Positions 5,671 to 12,251 of a stretch of DNA of 12,656 nucleotides are shown here, in pieces (position 1 is the stretch's first letter; each line of letters starts with the position of its first letter). The stretch spans positions 1 through 12,656 of the forward strand of contig MENB01000165.1 of assembly GCA_001768125.1 (NCBI GenBank), given 5' to 3'. The notes under the pieces are model-generated. The model searched no databases. It saw only the letters and a list, made by a program, of their open reading frames with translations, and was not told where the DNA came from. This DNA is from Armatimonadetes bacterium RBG_19FT_COMBO_69_19 (lineage in GTDB: Bacteria > Sysuimicrobiota > Sysuimicrobiia > Sysuimicrobiales > Kaftiobacteriaceae). A program made the position numbers and the translations under genes.

Positions 5671-5859
5671 CGTCATCTCCTGACCCGCCGCTCGTAGAGC
5701 ACCCGGTGGTAGCCCGCAAACCCGTCCAGATCGTCGGTTGTGGCAACGCACGCCCGCGCCATCCTCCTACTGTGTTCGTCACCAACCGCCCCCCGCCCCG
5801 TCGGACGGGGTCGGGGCAGAACGGGTCTCCCTCAGAGGTACGGAGAGCGGTACTCGCGT

Positions 5860-5877
5860 TTTAGTTGATGAACTAAA
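5860..5877. promoter_or_regulatory. 18-bp palindromic operator candidate (7-4-7)
   Basis: TTTAGTT (5860-5866) and AACTAAA (5871-5877) are perfect inverted repeats around the spacer GATG. The site is AT-rich in a GC-rich setting. It overlaps the predicted -35 of the peptide promoter and lies about 105 bp before the peptide start codon. The PlcR box, TATGNAA-N4-TTNCATA, has the same 7-4-7 geometry. I infer that the HTH-TPR regulator encoded next door binds here. Confidence 0.6.
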
Positions 5878-5894
5878 GAACAGGATTGCATAAC
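5865..5894 (+). promoter_or_regulatory. Predicted promoter of the signal-peptide gene
   Basis: TTGATG (5865-5870) and CATAAC (5889-5894), 18 bp apart, each match the sigma-70-type consensus at 4 of 6 positions. The -35 lies inside the 18-bp palindrome, so a protein bound there would block or help RNA polymerase directly. Transcription would begin near 5901 and give a leader of about 80 nt. The same CATAAC hexamer recurs upstream of the regulator gene (6243-6248). Confidence 0.45.
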
Positions 5895-5981
5895 CTCACG
5901 CCGAAAGGGGGCCACGGGGTTCGGCGGGACCCCAAGCCGGAAGGTGCCTGAATTCCATAGCCCAGGTGAGGAGGGGATCTC

Positions 5982-6116
5982 ATGCGGAAGATCATTGTGG
6001 CTGCGCTCGTGGCTCTGTTGCTGAGTCTTACTACAACGGCAATTGCTGGTGACTCCCTGCCCGGTGGTTCGGCTCGTTTCTGGATTGCCGGAGACAGCCT
6101 GCCGGGCGGCAGCTAG
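5982..6116 (+). CDS. Secreted 44-residue repeat peptide, candidate pheromone precursor
   Basis: An unlisted small gene of 44 codons. AGGAGG (5969-5974), 7 nt before the ATG, is among the best ribosome binding sites in the window. Residues 1-22 form a textbook Sec signal peptide: MRK, a hydrophobic core rich in V, A and L, then TTTAIA with an A-x-A site before Gly23. The mature part holds GDSLPGGS twice, at 23-30 and as the C-terminus (37-44), separated by ARFWIA. Both copies are preceded by Ile-Ala, so a second cut after WIA would release an identical octapeptide. The DNA copies differ at 10 of 30 nt, all silent. It lies directly upstream of an HTH-TPR regulator gene, as small pheromone genes often lie beside RRNPP receptors. 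There is no Cys, so it is not a lipoprotein or a disulfide-bonded bacteriocin. The pheromone role is inferred; a small cell-envelope peptide is the main alternative. Confidence 0.8.
   Translation: MRKIIVAALVALLLSLTTTAIAGDSLPGGSARFWIAGDSLPGGS
6012..6113 (+). repeat. Duplicated IAGDSLPGGS coding unit within the peptide gene
   Basis: Two 30-nt units encode the same decapeptide IAGDSLPGGS: codons 21-30 (6042-6071) and codons 35-44 (6084-6113). Codon by codon, Ile, Asp and Leu are identical. Ala, both early and late Gly codons, Pro and both Ser codons differ. The Ser pairs TCC/AGC and TCG/AGC need two and three base changes. The repeat is therefore old and conserved at protein level, not a recent copy. 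Confidence 0.85.
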
Positions 6117-6136
6117 TCCAACCCAAGACACAAGGC

Positions 6137-6167
6137 GGCCGCCGCTCTCCCGCCGGGAGCGACGGCC
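6137..6167. terminator. GC-rich stem-loop after the peptide gene
   Basis: GGCCG (6137-6141) pairs with CGGCC (6163-6167), and CGCTC (6143-6147) pairs with GAGCG (6157-6161), with a single C/A mismatch between and a 9-nt loop. It begins 20 nt after the peptide stop codon. The downstream sequence GTCCCGTTCCCCC has no U run, so it could be a partial terminator or attenuator. It could also be a stem protecting the 3' end of the peptide mRNA. It separates peptide and regulator transcription. Confidence 0.5.
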
Positions 6168-6197
6168 GTCCCGTTCCCCCCCGCCGGTCCATCTGCG

Positions 6198-6248
6198 AAC
6201 TTCCATGCAACTTCCATCGTTGCAGGAGATAATCGACTCACACATAAC
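6198..6248 (+). promoter_or_regulatory. Predicted promoter and repeats upstream of the HTH-TPR regulator
   Basis: AACTTCCAT occurs at 6198-6206 and 6209-6217, an 11-bp period. Overlapping it is an inverted repeat, TGCAAC (6206-6211) and GTTGCA (6219-6224) around 7 nt. A good -10, GATAAT (6228-6233), follows with no clear -35, which suits an activator-dependent promoter. Alternatively TTGCAG (6220-6225) and CATAAC (6243-6248) at 17-bp spacing form a weaker promoter. Either would place a transcript start shortly before the regulator gene at 6297. Confidence 0.45.
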
Positions 6249-6296
6249 AGCACAGGGCATGGACCTTGCTAGTAGGGGTAGGGGGAGGAAGATGGC

Positions 6297-7523
6297 ATGG
6301 GCGGCCTCGGAACGCGGATTCGCCAACTGCGCCAGTCGCGCGGGCTCACGCAGGAGCAGCTCGCCGGCCGGGAGCTAACCAAGAGCTTCATCAGCCTGCT
6401 CGAGCGGGAGAAGACGTCTCCCTCGGTGGAGACACTCGGCCTCCTGTCCCGGCGGCTGGGCACGTCCGTGGACGCCCTGCTGGGATCGCAGGACCGGTTG
6501 CCGGAGCAGGTCGCCGCGGGCCTGCTCGCCCTTAGTGCCGAGGCGCTGCGAAAGCGCAACGCGCCGCATGCGAAAGAGCTGCTCGGCGCCGTGAGCATCC
6601 TGTCTCGCTCGTACCGGCTCGACGAAACCGATCGCGAGCTCGTCCTCCAGTGGGCTCAGGTCGCGCTCGAGGAACGGGAGTTCGATACGGCTTCCTCGCT
6701 TGCCGCAGAAGCAAAGACGCGAGCTGAGCAGGCGCGGGACCTGTGGCGCACGGGCCGGGCTCTGCTCGTCCTCGGGACAGCGGCGCTGCGGCGCAGGGAC
6801 ATCCCGGCGGCCGTCCAGCACCTGAATGCATCGCTGGACATCCTCCGCAGGGCGAAGGCCAGTCGCGATCCGGCTCGCGTGGAGGCGCTGATCAACCTGG
6901 CGAGCGCGCTGGTCTACGCCGGTGACTACACGCGCGCGACTAAGCGGTACTACGAGGCGGCCCGGGCGCAGGTTACGCAGCAACATCCCGTCCTCCGGGC
7001 CCGTGCGCTGTGGGGACTCGGTGCTGCCTACCGTCATCAGGGAGAGCTCAGTAGCGCTATTGAGGCGCTCGTCGGCGCCCGGGACTTGTTCGAGAAGTCG
7101 GAAGATCTGCCGGACCTGGCCCACGTCCTCCACAACCTCGGCCAGGTGGCGGCCGAGCAGCAGCACAACAAAGACGCGCTCCGCCACTTCCACCATGCCC
7201 TACGCGTAGCCGAGCGTCTGAAGATGCAGGTGCTCCACGCCAACGTCCTGACGGAGATCGCGCGGGTCCACGTCACCCTGGAAAGCCTGGACGACGCCGC
7301 TGCGTTTGCCTCGCAGGCGCTGTCCGAGGCGAAGGCCGCGGGGGACCCGGTCGAGACCGCAGAGGCCCACGTCGTGCTCGGCCGCATCGCCTTTGCCCGC
7401 GGGAACCCGGCAGAAGGCACGAGGCTGATCAAGACCGCCGCCGAGATGTTCACCGCCCAGGGCATGAGCCATCGCGTCGCCGAGCTGGCCCGCGAGGCAG
7501 GGATGGCGCTGCTCGAGCGTTAA
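6297..7523 (+). CDS. XRE-family HTH transcriptional regulator with TPR array (RRNPP-like)
   Basis: A 408-residue protein; the ATG has GGAGG (6284-6288) 8 nt upstream. Residues 5-62 are an XRE/Cro-type helix-turn-helix (IRQLRQSRGLTQEQLA, SFISLLEREKTSPSVETL, LGTSVDALLG). The rest is all-helical. Six tetratricopeptide repeats recur every 40 residues (about 153, 193, 233, 273, 313 and 353), and two degenerate ones cover about 72-146. A 40-residue period, an N-terminal XRE domain and about 400 residues in total match the peptide-binding RRNPP regulators, especially the NprR layout. Their concave TPR surface binds imported oligopeptides of 5-10 residues and so switches DNA binding. The secreted repeat-peptide gene directly upstream would supply such a ligand. 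HTH-TPR proteins without a peptide partner also exist. The proline dehydrogenase gene follows after 14 bp. Confidence 0.92.
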   Translation: MGGLGTRIRQLRQSRGLTQEQLAGRELTKSFISLLEREKTSPSVETLGLLSRRLGTSVDALLGSQDRLPEQVAAGLLALSAEALRKRNAPHAKELLGAVSILSRSYRLDETDRELVLQWAQVALEEREFDTASSLAAEAKTRAEQARDLWRTGRALLVLGTAALRRRDIPAAVQHLNASLDILRRAKASRDPARVEALINLASALVYAGDYTRATKRYYEAARAQVTQQHPVLRARALWGLGAAYRHQGELSSAIEALVGARDLFEKSEDLPDLAHVLHNLGQVAAEQQHNKDALRHFHHALRVAERLKMQVLHANVLTEIARVHVTLESLDDAAAFASQALSEAKAAGDPVETAEAHVVLGRIAFARGNPAEGTRLIKTAAEMFTAQGMSHRVAELAREAGMALLER

Positions 7524-7537
7524 CCCACCAGGCGGGC

Positions 7538-8452
7538 ATGCTCACCCGCCGCCTCATCCTCCTGCTGGCCGGCAGTCCCACGATCCAGCGCTTCGTCCGC
7601 CGTTACGGCATGCGCCTGGGCGCCGCGCGTTTCGTCGCCGGCGAGACGCTGGACGAATGCGTCCAGGTGCTCGGCCGACTTAACCAGTCCGGCCTGATGA
7701 CGAACACGACGCTCCTCGGCGAGAGCGTGCACGACGAGGGCGCGGCGGGGGAGATCGTCGAGATCTATAACCGCATCCTCGACCGCATCGCGCGCGACGG
7801 TTTGATCACGAACCCATCCGTCAAGCTCACCCACCTGGGGCTCGACATCAGTGAAGAGCTCGCCTACACGAACCTCCGCCGGCTCGTCGAACATGCCGCG
7901 CACCTGCGGAACTTCGTACGGGTCGACATGGAGGACTCGCCGAGGGTCGACCCAACGCTGCGCATCTATCGCCGGCTCCACGAGGACGGCTTCACGAACG
8001 TCGGGGTCGTGCTGCAGTCCTACCTGTACCGGACCGAGAACGACCTGGCCCGGCTCCTCCCCCTCCGGCCGAATCTGCGCATCGTCAAGGGCGCCTACCT
8101 CGAGCCGCCCCAGATCGCTTTCCCGCGCAAGGAGGACGTGGACCGGAATTACGTCCAGCTGACGGAGCGGATGCTGTTGGAAGCCGGCTTCACCGCGATC
8201 GCCACGCACGATGACCGGATCATCGGCTGGGCCATCGACTTCATCGAGCGGCGCGGCGTCCCGCACGATCGCTTCGAGTTTCAGATGCTCTACGGCGTGC
8301 GGCCCGCCCTCCAGCTGGACCTCGTGCGCCGCGGCTACCGCGTCCGCGTGGCGACCCCCTACGGGCGGGACTGGTACCCCTACCTGATGCGCCGCCTCGC
8401 CGAACGGCCCGCAAACGTGTTCTTCATGGTGCGGAACCTGCTGCGGGGATGA
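7538..8452 (+). CDS. Proline dehydrogenase (monofunctional)
   Basis: A 304-residue stand-alone proline dehydrogenase, close in length to the Thermus and Deinococcus enzymes. It is an FAD-dependent (beta-alpha)8 barrel that oxidises L-proline to pyrroline-5-carboxylate and passes electrons to the quinone pool. Visible family blocks are PSVKLTHLGL with Lys97, VRVDMEDSPRVDPTL (128-141), GVVLQSYLYRT (156-166), RIVKGAYLEP with Lys184, ATHDD (222-226), FEFQMLYGVRP (246-256), and the substrate-binding YLMRRLAERP (282-291). The start follows a modest AGGCGG. Only 14 bp separate it from the regulator stop, so the two are probably cotranscribed. No pyrroline-5-carboxylate dehydrogenase gene is in the window. 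Proline catabolism is a possible output of the upstream regulator. Confidence 0.95.
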   Translation: MLTRRLILLLAGSPTIQRFVRRYGMRLGAARFVAGETLDECVQVLGRLNQSGLMTNTTLLGESVHDEGAAGEIVEIYNRILDRIARDGLITNPSVKLTHLGLDISEELAYTNLRRLVEHAAHLRNFVRVDMEDSPRVDPTLRIYRRLHEDGFTNVGVVLQSYLYRTENDLARLLPLRPNLRIVKGAYLEPPQIAFPRKEDVDRNYVQLTERMLLEAGFTAIATHDDRIIGWAIDFIERRGVPHDRFEFQMLYGVRPALQLDLVRRGYRVRVATPYGRDWYPYLMRRLAERPANVFFMVRNLLRG

Positions 8453-9043: not shown

Positions 9044-9645
9044 GGGATCGTGTAGCGGACGAGCTCGCTCCCGCCTTCGCGCTGGAGCTCGCCGCGCTGT
9101 TCCTCGCGCGCAATCTTCACGATCCCGACGCCCGGCGCATACCAGGTGAAGAGCGTCACCGTCAGATCCGCACGGGTGGTGACGGTCTTCACCTTCCACG
9201 CCTTGAACGTACCCGCAGTGACCTTCACCGTTTCTTCGCCCACCCACTCCTCGGTGATCCTCGACGGTACCGGGGTGTCGGTCGGGACCCAGGACCACGA
9301 CCGGCCTGCCTCCGGGGGGAGGAGGAGGACGGTGCGGGGCGGATCCACCACGACGCGGCGGCCGCCGCTCTCGGTCTCGACCACGCGGATCTCTGACGGC
9401 GTCGTCTCGTAACAGATGCGGGTGACCCGCTCGCGGCCATCCCGCGCGGTCTTTGTCTCGACGACCGCGCACGCCGCCGGCCCCACCGTCTTTTGGGCGA
9501 CGACGCGGGCGGTGATGTCCGCACCGTCCTCCGCCCTTCGCGTCCATGTGGCGCCCATGACGAGCGGAAAGTATGAGGAGGATGGTGCGGGCCTTTCCTG
9601 GCAGCCCGCGGCGACCACGAGCATCAGGATGAGGACAATTCTCAC
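9040..9645 (-). CDS. Putative lipoprotein of unknown function
   Basis: 201 residues with a short signal peptide and the lipobox VAAGC (Cys15), so it is probably lipid-anchored after signal peptidase II cleavage. The mature protein is beta-rich: YFPLVMGATWTR, CAVVETKT, LLLPPEAGRSWSWVP, EETVKVTAGTFKAWKV, FTWYAPGVGIVKI. The final block, a Trp-Tyr-Ala-Pro-Gly-Val-Gly stretch, is common in uncharacterised exported beta proteins. The start is a GTG at 9645 that overlaps the stop of the molybdopterin gene as GTGA (9645-9642), with AAGG just upstream, so translation is probably coupled. The 3' end shares CTAG (9040-9043) with the convergent secreted-protein gene. Function is unknown. Confidence 0.8.
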   Translation of the reverse strand: MRIVLILMLVVAAGCQERPAPSSSYFPLVMGATWTRRAEDGADITARVVAQKTVGPAACAVVETKTARDGRERVTRICYETTPSEIRVVETESGGRRVVVDPPRTVLLLPPEAGRSWSWVPTDTPVPSRITEEWVGEETVKVTAGTFKAWKVKTVTTRADLTVTLFTWYAPGVGIVKIAREEQRGELQREGGSELVRYTIP

Positions 9646-12251
9646 GACACCTTCTCGCGCTCCCGCAGGGCCTCGAGCAGCCGGCGCGGCGTCACCGGCA
9701 GCGAGGTGAGGCGGACGCCTGCGGCATCGGCGATGGCATTGGCGATGGCCGCGCCCCCCGGGATCACCGGCGGCTCGCCGACGCCCTTCGCCCCGAAGGG
9801 GCCGAACTCCGAGGCCACCTCGACCATCACCGTCTCCATCGGGGGAGTCGTGGACGCCTTTGGGATGGGGTATTCGGTGAACCCCCAGGTGAGCAGCGTC
9901 CCCTGGTCGTCGTACGTCATCGCCTCGAGCAGCCCCCAGCCGATGCCCTGCACCGCGCCGCCCCGCATCTGGCCTTCCACGGCCGGCGGGTTGATCGCGA
10001 ACCCCACGTCCTGGATCACCACGTAGTCGAGGATCTGCGCTTCGCCCGTCTCACGGTCCACGCGCACCTTCGTCAGATGCGCGGCGAATCCCGGCGAGCC
10101 CTTGGGGGATGGCAGGTTGCCGTTCCCGTATACCGGCGCGTACTTCGCCCCGAAGCTCATGAACTCCGAGGCCACCTCGACCATCACCGTCTCCATCGGG
10201 GGAGTCGTGGACGCCTTTGGGATGGGGTATTCGGTGAACCCCCAGGTGAGCAGCGTCCCCTGGTCGTCGTACGTCATCGCCTCGAGCAGCCCCCAGCCGA
10301 TGCCCTGCACCGCGCCGCCCCGCATCTGGCCTTCCACGGCCGGCGGGTTGATCGCGAACCCCACGTCCTGGATCACCACGTAGTCGAGGATCTGCGCTTC
10401 GCCCGTCTCACGGTCCACGCGCACCTTCGTCAGATGCGCGGCGAATCCCGGCGAGCCCTTGGGGGATGGCAGGTTGCCGTTCCCGTATACCGGCGCGTAC
10501 TTCGCCCCGAAGCTCATGCTCTTGCGCGCGATCTCGGCGAGCGCGATCTGCTTCTGGGATGTTCCCTTCACCCGCACCTGGCCTTCGGCGATCTCCAGGT
10601 CGTCGGGGCGCGCCTCCAGTTCCGCGGCGGCGATGGCCAGGATCTGCCGGCGCGCATCCTCCGCGGCGGCCTTCACCGCCGGTCCCACGGTGTACGTGAT
10701 CTTGCTCCCCCCCGACGCCCCCGCATACGGCGCCTGGTCGGTGTCGGCGATGACCACTTGCACCTGGTCTACCGGGACGCCCAGGACCTCGGCGGCGATC
10801 AAGGCCATGGTCGTCGCTGTGCCCGTGATGTCGACCATGCCGAGCACCACCTGGAAGGTGCCGTCGGTGTTCGCACGGATGCACGCTGAGGCGGACTCCA
10901 CGCCACCGGTCCAGCCGCCGACCGCCACGCCGTATCCGATGCCTTCCCCGCGCTCCCGATGCCGGTACTTCGGGTGGTCACGGAGCGCCTCGAGGACCTG
11001 GCGCATGCCCATCCGGTTCCACGGCCGGCCGTTGGGCATCGGGTCGCCCGTCCCCGAGCAGTTGCGCAGGCGCAGCTCGACAGGGTCCATCCGCAGCTGC
11101 TCGGCCATGATGTTCATCTGGGACTCTATGGCGAACGTGGCCTGGGGCGCCCCCGGCGCACGGTACGCGCCGTTGGGGGGCTTGTTGGTCAGGACTTCGA
11201 GCGCCTCGATGAGCAGGTTCGGGGTCTTGTAGTAGCCGCCCAGCAGTACCGCCGCGATCGACGCCGGCGCGCCGGGTTCCGCTCCCGCATCGAAGACGAT
11301 CTTCGCCTGCAAGGCCACCAGGGTGCCGTCACGCTTCACGCCCGTGCGCAGCCAGATCTCCGCCTCGGGACCGGGGGTGCTCATGAGGAAGTCCTCGCGG
11401 CGGGTGAGCACGACCCGCACCGGGCGCTTCGTGACCACGGCCAGTGCCGCGGCGAGCGGCTCGAGCAGCATGAACTTCCCGCCGAACGCGCCGCCGACGG
11501 TCATCGCGACGACCTTGACGCGGGACTCCGGATATCGGAGCGCCTTCGCCACCTGGGCTTTCACGTAGAACTGCGCCTGGGTGCTGGTGTACACCACAAC
11601 GGCCTGCATCACCGGATCGAGGGTGGCCACGGTGGCGTGCGGCTCCATGTACGACTGATGCAGCCTGCCGGTCGCGTAGGTGTGCTCCACGACCAGAGCG
11701 GCTTCCTTGAACCCGAGCTCGACGTCCCCCCGCCGAAAGGTGTAGGTGTTGGCCACGTTGCGCGGCTTCGTCTCCTTGCCCCCCTTGACGTCCACCGTGG
11801 AGTGGGCCGCGGCTTCCTCGTCGTCCTCCGCGTCCCGCCGCACGAGCGGCGCGCCATCCCGCATCGCCTCACGCGGGTCGAGGACCGCCGGCAGGACCTC
11901 GTACTCCACCTCCGCGCCGAGCCGCTCCACCCCATCGGCGGCCGCGCTTTCGGCCTCCGCGAGGACGACGGCGACGGGATGCCCGGAGTACAGCGCCTCA
12001 CCGTGCCTGGCCAGGAGGTTGCTTGAAACCCCTTCCGGCAAATCCTCTTCGGTGACGACGTTGACGACGCCGGGAACCCCGAGGGCGGCCGCCTTCGGCA
12101 GCCGGGTCACCCGCGCGTGCGGATGCGGGCTCAACAACAGCCGGGCGTGGAGCATCCCCGGCAGCTGCAGGTCTTCGGTGTACCGGGCGCTCCCGGTAAC
12201 CTTCCCGAGTCCCTCGATGCGCTTGGTGGGCTTGCCGACGACGGCGGTCAC
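9642..12251 (-). CDS. Xanthine/aldehyde dehydrogenase-family molybdopterin-binding subunit with internal duplication
   Basis: 869 residues, but two identical 119-residue segments (579-697 and 698-816) lie in tandem. Without one copy the length is 750, normal for the family. The start GTG (12251) has GGAGGGAG 9 nt upstream. It opens with the a/b hammerhead (KRIEGLGKVTGSARYTEDL). Molybdopterin contacts include GGAFGGKF, NGAYRAPGAPQATFAIES, TGTATTMALIAAEVLGV, GGSKITYT and GGAVQGIGWG (now present twice). The catalytic Glu lies in GAKGVGEPP (Glu826). Such subunits hydroxylate purines, aldehydes or N-heterocycles and need 2Fe-2S and FAD partners, which are not in this window. AYRAPGAPQ rather than AYxCSFR argues against form I CO dehydrogenase. 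Both ends overlap neighbours by 4 nt (GTGA). Whether the enlarged protein is active is unclear. Confidence 0.92.
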   Translation of the reverse strand: MTAVVGKPTKRIEGLGKVTGSARYTEDLQLPGMLHARLLLSPHPHARVTRLPKAAALGVPGVVNVVTEEDLPEGVSSNLLARHGEALYSGHPVAVVLAEAESAAADGVERLGAEVEYEVLPAVLDPREAMRDGAPLVRRDAEDDEEAAAHSTVDVKGGKETKPRNVANTYTFRRGDVELGFKEAALVVEHTYATGRLHQSYMEPHATVATLDPVMQAVVVYTSTQAQFYVKAQVAKALRYPESRVKVVAMTVGGAFGGKFMLLEPLAAALAVVTKRPVRVVLTRREDFLMSTPGPEAEIWLRTGVKRDGTLVALQAKIVFDAGAEPGAPASIAAVLLGGYYKTPNLLIEALEVLTNKPPNGAYRAPGAPQATFAIESQMNIMAEQLRMDPVELRLRNCSGTGDPMPNGRPWNRMGMRQVLEALRDHPKYRHRERGEGIGYGVAVGGWTGGVESASACIRANTDGTFQVVLGMVDITGTATTMALIAAEVLGVPVDQVQVVIADTDQAPYAGASGGSKITYTVGPAVKAAAEDARRQILAIAAAELEARPDDLEIAEGQVRVKGTSQKQIALAEIARKSMSFGAKYAPVYGNGNLPSPKGSPGFAAHLTKVRVDRETGEAQILDYVVIQDVGFAINPPAVEGQMRGGAVQGIGWGLLEAMTYDDQGTLLTWGFTEYPIPKASTTPPMETVMVEVASEFMSFGAKYAPVYGNGNLPSPKGSPGFAAHLTKVRVDRETGEAQILDYVVIQDVGFAINPPAVEGQMRGGAVQGIGWGLLEAMTYDDQGTLLTWGFTEYPIPKASTTPPMETVMVEVASEFGPFGAKGVGEPPVIPGGAAIANAIADAAGVRLTSLPVTPRRLLEALREREKVS
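9804..10518. repeat. Exact 357-bp tandem duplication (two copies)
   Basis: 9804-10160 and 10161-10517 read as identical by eye, and the match runs one base further (to 10518). 357 is 119 codons, so the frame is kept. The copies encode residues 698-816 and 579-697 of the molybdopterin subunit, each running from MSFGAK to EVASEF. A 13-mer, CTTCGCCCCGAAG, recurs at 9786, 10143 and 10500. Just left of the first unit it is followed by five different bases (GGGCC instead of CTCAT), so the joint is not at the 13-mer itself. It is either a recent duplication or an assembly error. Confidence 0.95.

Follow-up and report, generated by a model that had tools for sequence, protein, structure and literature searches.

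A putative exported peptide repeat and an adjacent HTH-TPR regulator in Sysuimicrobiota, a candidate RRNPP-like signalling pair outside Bacillota

The window analysed here is a DNA stretch of 12,656 nucleotides (contig MENB01000165.1) from Armatimonadetes bacterium RBG_19FT_COMBO_69_19, a member of the uncultured phylum Candidatus Sysuimicrobiota. It contains a small gene encoding a putative pheromone precursor and, behind it, the gene of a regulator with a helix-turn-helix (HTH) and tetratricopeptide repeats (TPR). The precursor gene (5982-6116, plus strand) begins with ATG, is directly preceded by the ribosome-binding site GAGGAGGGG and codes for 44 amino acids arranged as MRKIIVAALVALLLSLTTTAIA-GDSLPGGS-ARFWIA-GDSLPGGS. 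Its product has a basic N-terminus (MRK) followed by a hydrophobic stretch. Residues 1-22 (5982-6047, plus strand) constitute a putative Sec-type leader, as judged from the sequence and a hydrophobicity scan only, which terminates with ..TAIA in front of GDSLPGGS. We take this end to be an A-x-A motif of the signal peptidase I type. The first GDSLPGGS copy resides at 6048-6071 and the second, the putative mature peptide at the C-terminus, at 6090-6113, both on the plus strand. In most relatives a variable peptide is likewise located at or close to the C-terminus of the precursor. All components of this gene described in an earlier note on the same DNA, i.e., 44 codons, ribosome-binding site, Sec leader and two GDSLPGGS units, were thus recovered.

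The regulator gene (6297-7523, plus strand) starts 180 bp behind the precursor gene on the same strand. Pfam, a structure model, fold comparison and a tree characterise its 408-amino-acid product as an XRE-HTH/TPR regulator and putative intracellular peptide receptor. Pfam disclosed HTH_3 at residues 8-60 (4.6e-10) and TPR_12 (1.3e-23); RRNPP families do not appear among the 14 Pfam matches. In the AlphaFold2 model (mean predicted local distance difference test score 92.8), an HTH domain at about residues 4-61 is followed by helix pairs approximately 40 residues apart, which form a TPR superhelix at about 65-408. The domain order and the TPR period proposed in the earlier note were thereby confirmed. 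A PDB profile search yielded LGN (9.7e-29), RapF (2.6e-13) and NprR (4.2e-12), and the VIA Z values of the model were 30.2 for LGN, 29.7 for Rap and 28.2 and 26.6 for NprR. Foldseek gave PlcR (3u3w) among its matches (6.5e-6). Searches against PADLOC and NCBIfam revealed only weak HTH or TPR matches, those of NCBIfam being far below the cut-offs.

The 44-amino-acid precursor itself had no match in Pfam, and a protein search returned solely P0102, which is identical to the query. Since P0102 is the window's own protein, no further relatives were obtained by that search. At the DNA level, the two IAGDSLPGGS copies of the window differ in seven of ten codons but encode the same residues, and the differences include both serines, for which TCN codons in one copy correspond to AGY codons in the other. 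Ten family-level genomes were screened with a degenerate nucleotide pattern for GDSLPGGS, which detected only the two copies of the window and two in the orthologue of genome G017 (locus L005), while the reversed pattern gave no match in these genomes. The duplication of GDSLPGGS is not due to chance. In a comparison of the window with the 82%-identical G017 orthologue, the 16 repeat codons showed four silent and no amino acid differences, and the remaining 28 codons eight silent and 14 amino acid differences (one-sided Fisher p = 3.5e-4, from a single comparison). L007 and L008 form a further pair, but they are so similar that they contribute little (1 and 0 in 18, and 3 and 2 in 40, in the same order).

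To place the pair in its phylum, 43 genomes were used, all belonging to one class and order, of which the window's own genome is 81% complete. Regulator matches at E <= 1e-20 were found at 63 places in 31 of the 43 genomes, with one to four per genome. A strict scan, applied to 59 loci, looked upstream of the regulator for a short open reading frame (ORF) with an exported product and a ribosome-binding site. L015, L035, L050 and L062 were outside it because of a missing N-terminal match. Such a small gene was disclosed in 28 of the 59 loci. Beyond the strict scan, small genes were also identified at L015, L019, L030, L056, L057, L059, L035 and L009, giving a total of 36 of the 63 loci, the window included. 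The small gene of L035 has a GTG start and the tail AGSGDIDSYGGTAR. At L009 (= L165, G013:C12), a peptide frame ..QIAGDVGPGGG with a truncated leader was recognised by eye at the same place. Outside the 63 loci, the named records L081, L083 and L092 carry a small gene as well. As a control, the strict scan was applied to ORFs from the same contigs or their equivalents and gave one match in 112 (raw count 2/113, one of which was the receptor L004 that had escaped the filter). These ORFs were chosen by length and might in part be spurious, and a number of the contigs enter twice. Of 58 lower-scoring loci (L086-L143, mostly from other bacteria and mostly HTH-matched), seven matched the scan (L092, L110, L111, L120, L124, L134, L138), and only L092 (ANGP1 record) possessed a GD-rich tail. 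Downstream of the regulator, 29 loci lacking an upstream gene were searched over 700 bp, or over 2-240 bp for many, and L074 was the single candidate of interest. At this locus (Firmicutes bacterium UBA3570), a 64-amino-acid exported-looking ORF lies 4 bp past the receptor stop codon and might possibly be a precursor in downstream position. At L009, oligopeptide-transporter-like ORFs follow the receptor.

The peptide words of the precursors, with mature borders set by our choice, comprise repeated and single forms. Besides GDSLPGGS (twice in the window and in G017), GDTWPGGG, GDTGPGQNG, GDVGPGQNG (two genomes), GDVGPGDS, GDIGPGS, GDDPPDSD, APELPGEN, GQDGPGQ and GHGDGGAVG occur twice, GHGDGELL three to four times and GDDNGPGAV in at least two units. 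Single words are GENLPNGN, AEPPGGNGG, DPELPTGG, GGMPGENGG, DGDMGGGL, DGDFPGGG, GGGWPGGK, GHGGGELL, GDDAGGSH, GDDPGGH, GDDNDGSH and others. One imperfect repeat unit each was seen in L058, L061 and L081. An internal repeat of at least six residues was present in 15 of the 31 precursors examined, and in none of these 15 was the observed repeat length ever reached by 2000 shuffles of the tail. The compared copies of 13 of them differ at three or more codons, all silent; the longest repeat pair of L037 and L058 is identical in DNA. The word varies between systems, but the copies of a given gene match at the amino acid level and differ mostly by silent changes. Conservation of the repeat, on which the earlier note had laid weight, holds for both copies of the close G017 orthologue but not for distant systems, where the word has changed. 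There, the copies belonging to the same gene have mostly changed jointly, which is what one would expect of a signal word. All 15 repeat-bearing precursors end in TAG. In L034, L037, L058, L081 and L083 at least three tandem units exist (GHGDGELL.., GDDNGPGAVYGLPPLVPQ..), resembling amplified pheromone genes.

Upstream of the precursor gene, a SigH-type promoter candidate was located at 5882-5905 on the plus strand, composed of AGGATT (5882-5887), 15 nt and GAA (5903-5905). The motif AGGAWW...GAA was first formed by reading 19 upstream regions. Among 30 small genes, 20 have it in the form AGGA[AT]N-N15/16-GAA in the 160 bp preceding the gene (0.26 expected by first-order resampling), and 22 have a looser form (0.81 expected). 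Seventeen of the 30 regions had been inspected before the motif was defined; the 13 unviewed ones contained it in six cases (L034, L036, L037, L048, L058, L061), four of which (L034, L037, L058, L061) are closely related. When spacings from 8 to 24 were scanned, nine loci fell at 15, 13 at 16 and no more than two elsewhere, and thus a distance of 17-18 nt from AGGA to GAA resulted. SigH promoters consist of a -35 AGGA and a -10 GAAT, 17-18 nt apart (PMC12456013, available text). The distance of 17 nt in the window fits the spacing of SigH promoters, though the -10 element reads GAAA instead of GAAT. With a longer, stricter pattern, only this gene was hit in its own genome. Receptors without a small gene showed the motif in 2 of 24 cases, both near the receptor start. 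Matches above the cut-off of the spore_sigH model TIGR02859 occurred in 36 of the phylum's 43 genomes (44 were searched, likewise with 36) and in a single one of 14 control genomes. The window's genome gave two partial spore_sigH matches of 291 and 270 bits, below the cut-off of 294.8. A SigH promoter is also reported for most phr genes of Bacillus (PMC4147580, in the part available). In L011, L023, L027, L056, L074 and L092, the AGGA..GAA motif additionally resides 66-91 bp before the receptor gene, which may itself be SigH-driven there.

A tree was calculated for 65 receptors. It omits L035, L050 and L062 (incomplete N-terminal match), L092 (187 homologous residues at a cut of 350), 17 named loci taken as additional records of loci already present and the remaining loci of L086-L143; L081 is marked 'none' in it despite repeats found later. 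The window regulator belongs to a clade of 11 receptors (support 100/99), all of which have linked precursors (that of L009 with the truncated leader), nine with two copies of the word. A separate clade (L003, L018, L032, L040, L041, L043, L044, L046; support 100/100) revealed no linked small gene, with only 164 bp of upstream DNA in L003. This partnerless clade is represented by one receptor per genome in eight of the ten genomes of the window's family. Its members may listen without having their own word, or serve another function; some Rap proteins are reported as receptors without own peptide in the available text of PMC9765709. Peptide distance tracks receptor distance (r = 0.57 for 36 pairs and 0.64 for 11), a correlation for which shared descent alone could be sufficient.

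We concluded that the two genes very probably constitute an RRNPP-like pair, in which an exported and re-imported peptide controls a DNA-binding TPR receptor, outside Bacillota. The pheromone-receptor interpretation of the earlier note is therefore supported; neither of its two genomic tests, on linkage and on repeat conservation, overturned the pair. RRNPP receptors are described as proteins of 250-500 amino acids with a TPR peptide-binding domain (PMC10075063, in part). The window regulator, with 408 amino acids and TPR_12, lies within this range, its groove being a candidate only. The adjacent gene of an exported precursor with ribosome-binding site is there as well (leader by hydrophobicity), and repetition and close-relative conservation of the putative mature peptide were seen at the sequence level.

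We infer a course of events that runs from secretion through processing, re-import and binding to the regulated genes. The SigH-type promoter would drive transcription of the precursor gene, and the product would be exported by Sec and its leader cleaved after ..AIA. A second cut at the IA/G boundary before copy 2 would release GDSLPGGS, which would build up outside the cell. An oligopeptide (Opp-type) ATP-binding cassette importer would then bring it back, and GDSLPGGS, as the presumed ligand, would bind to the TPR groove and shift the DNA binding of the HTH. The earlier statement that no Opp importer is encoded holds for the window but not for the genome, which has 24 SBP_bac_5 matches and abundant permease families, with no tie to GDSLPGGS.

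By analogy, the pair appears closest in plan to NprR-NprX, with a Phr-like control of the precursor. Like the window regulator, NprR combines HTH and TPR in a single chain. In the nprR-nprX system the precursor gene is situated downstream of the receptor gene, whereas in the window it lies upstream and has its own promoter-like element. Moreover, the identity to NprR is only 12% over the structural alignment, and the host is affiliated with Sysuimicrobiota rather than Bacillota, bearing out the earlier suspicion that it is not a typical Firmicute. To our knowledge, Rap proteins lack a DNA-binding HTH. They possess a 3-helix bundle, and phr is located downstream of rap (both PMC5199041, partial text), while the window regulator has an HTH and an upstream precursor. 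PlcR-PapR, PrgX, Rgg, ComR and AimR represent further cytoplasmic HTH-plus-TPR-like receptors of short peptides, and their peptides differ in sequence from that of the window. These systems are known from Bacillota and viruses (PMC10075063, PMC9765709, available parts), at which RRNPP surveys are also aimed (the same sources and PMC12700828, likewise in part). A literature search, which did not extend to bioRxiv and most subscription journals, brought up neither a system of this kind in Sysuimicrobiota nor a paper containing any of four peptide strings. In the accessible main text of PMC11604079, which describes Sysuimicrobiota, 'quorum' and 'sporul' are absent. New are thus the phylum, the upstream precursor with its own promoter-like element and the acidic, Gly-rich words, while the overall plan is known.

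Two findings weigh against an RRNPP-like pair. The eukaryotic LGN fits the TPR model of the regulator as well as Rap and NprR do, so that an RRNPP descent is not established, and with LGN scoring as high as Rap we rejected the structure as proof of family membership. Furthermore, no small gene was found at 27 of the 63 receptor loci, among them some with short upstream DNA (L050 20 bp, L003 164 bp, L013 337 bp); at L062 it was absent from 800 bp upstream. The regulator can consequently function without such a neighbour, which lends some weight to the view that the peptide is a true exported signal read by another receptor, its adjacency to the HTH-TPR gene being unrelated. However, the linkage called for by the earlier note, though missing at these loci, exists at 11 of 11 in the window's own core clade and at 36 of 63 in the phylum. 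Peptide similarity also tracks receptor similarity, and no different regulator was seen by eye to recur in six neighbourhoods, whose ORFs are unannotated. We therefore consider another receptor very unlikely.

The short exported, Gly-rich repeated core adjoining a regulator would also suit an antimicrobial or modified peptide (a bacteriocin or a ribosomally synthesized and post-translationally modified peptide, RiPP), with the HTH-TPR protein as its mere regulator, and the latter weakly matches HaaT, a TPR model of RiPP clusters (39 bits versus a cut-off of 1125). Yet a modification enzyme, peptidase-transporter or immunity gene was noticed neither among the annotated genes of the window nor, by eye, among unannotated ORFs of six other loci. 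The leader is of the plain hydrophobic Sec type, and acidic, Gly-rich peptides of 7-10 residues are presumably unlike bacteriocins, making this origin highly improbable. A hydrophobic type I toxin, an attenuator leader peptide or an untranslated frame, as the shortness and hydrophobicity of the small ORF and the hairpin behind it could suggest, are scarcely conceivable alternatives: the polar repeats are conserved but the hydrophobic part is not, identical repeats diverge silently, and the gene has its own promoter-like element and ribosome-binding site.

As several receptors with different peptides occur in one genome, private parallel channels are likely, and the RRNPP-like pairs suggest that the phylum uses peptide messages between cells. 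To a phylum-wide, SigH-gated pheromone family with fast-changing words, genomes that run several private channels and a listen-only clade that is conserved, we would give not quite an even chance. If true, RRNPP-like signalling would be shared by deep Terrabacteria lineages and not be a Bacillota invention. The pair itself, if genuine, would extend imported-peptide signalling to an uncultured phylum, offer dozens of testable peptide-receptor pairs whose natural variation is usable for specificity studies, and open a way to study the density-dependent behaviour of Sysuimicrobiota. Another question, raised by the SigH-type promoter, is whether signal peptides came under SigH control before Bacillus arose.

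Some other elements of the window were inspected. Directly 5' of the promoter candidate lies the perfect 7+4+7 palindrome TTTAGTTGATGAACTAAA (5860-5877, no strand assigned), with one match in the window and none in shuffles. A role as receptor operator is unsupported, since the site has no second copy in its own genome, even with up to two mismatches, and the G017 orthologue lacks the left arm. A regulon search by DNA motif found none. Between precursor and receptor genes, a GC-rich hairpin (6134-6170, plus strand, 8+7 bp stem, no T-run) is a terminator or attenuator candidate; the 187-nt stretch including it gave a weak z of -1.67, and Rfam had no match at E <= 0.1 in 5700-6400. Upstream of the precursor gene, a CrtO-like FAD oxidoreductase gene (below model cut-off) is encoded on the opposite strand. 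A proline dehydrogenase gene (7538-8452, plus strand; Pfam Pro_dh 5.8e-35), a possible target or passenger, starts 14 bp past the receptor gene. By eye, it also adjoins the receptor in G017, but four further neighbourhoods of the core clade (L162-L165) did not show it; the contig of L160 ends about 1.3 kb past the receptor. It was rejected as a general target, adjoining the receptor in the genus only. Farther downstream, a xanthine-dehydrogenase-like gene (9642-12251) includes a 300-nt direct repeat (9786-10085 and 10143-10442, 98% identical, spacing 357). Its product has 869 amino acids compared with 750 for the homologous G017 ORF, and the repeat is either an in-frame duplication or an assembly artefact.
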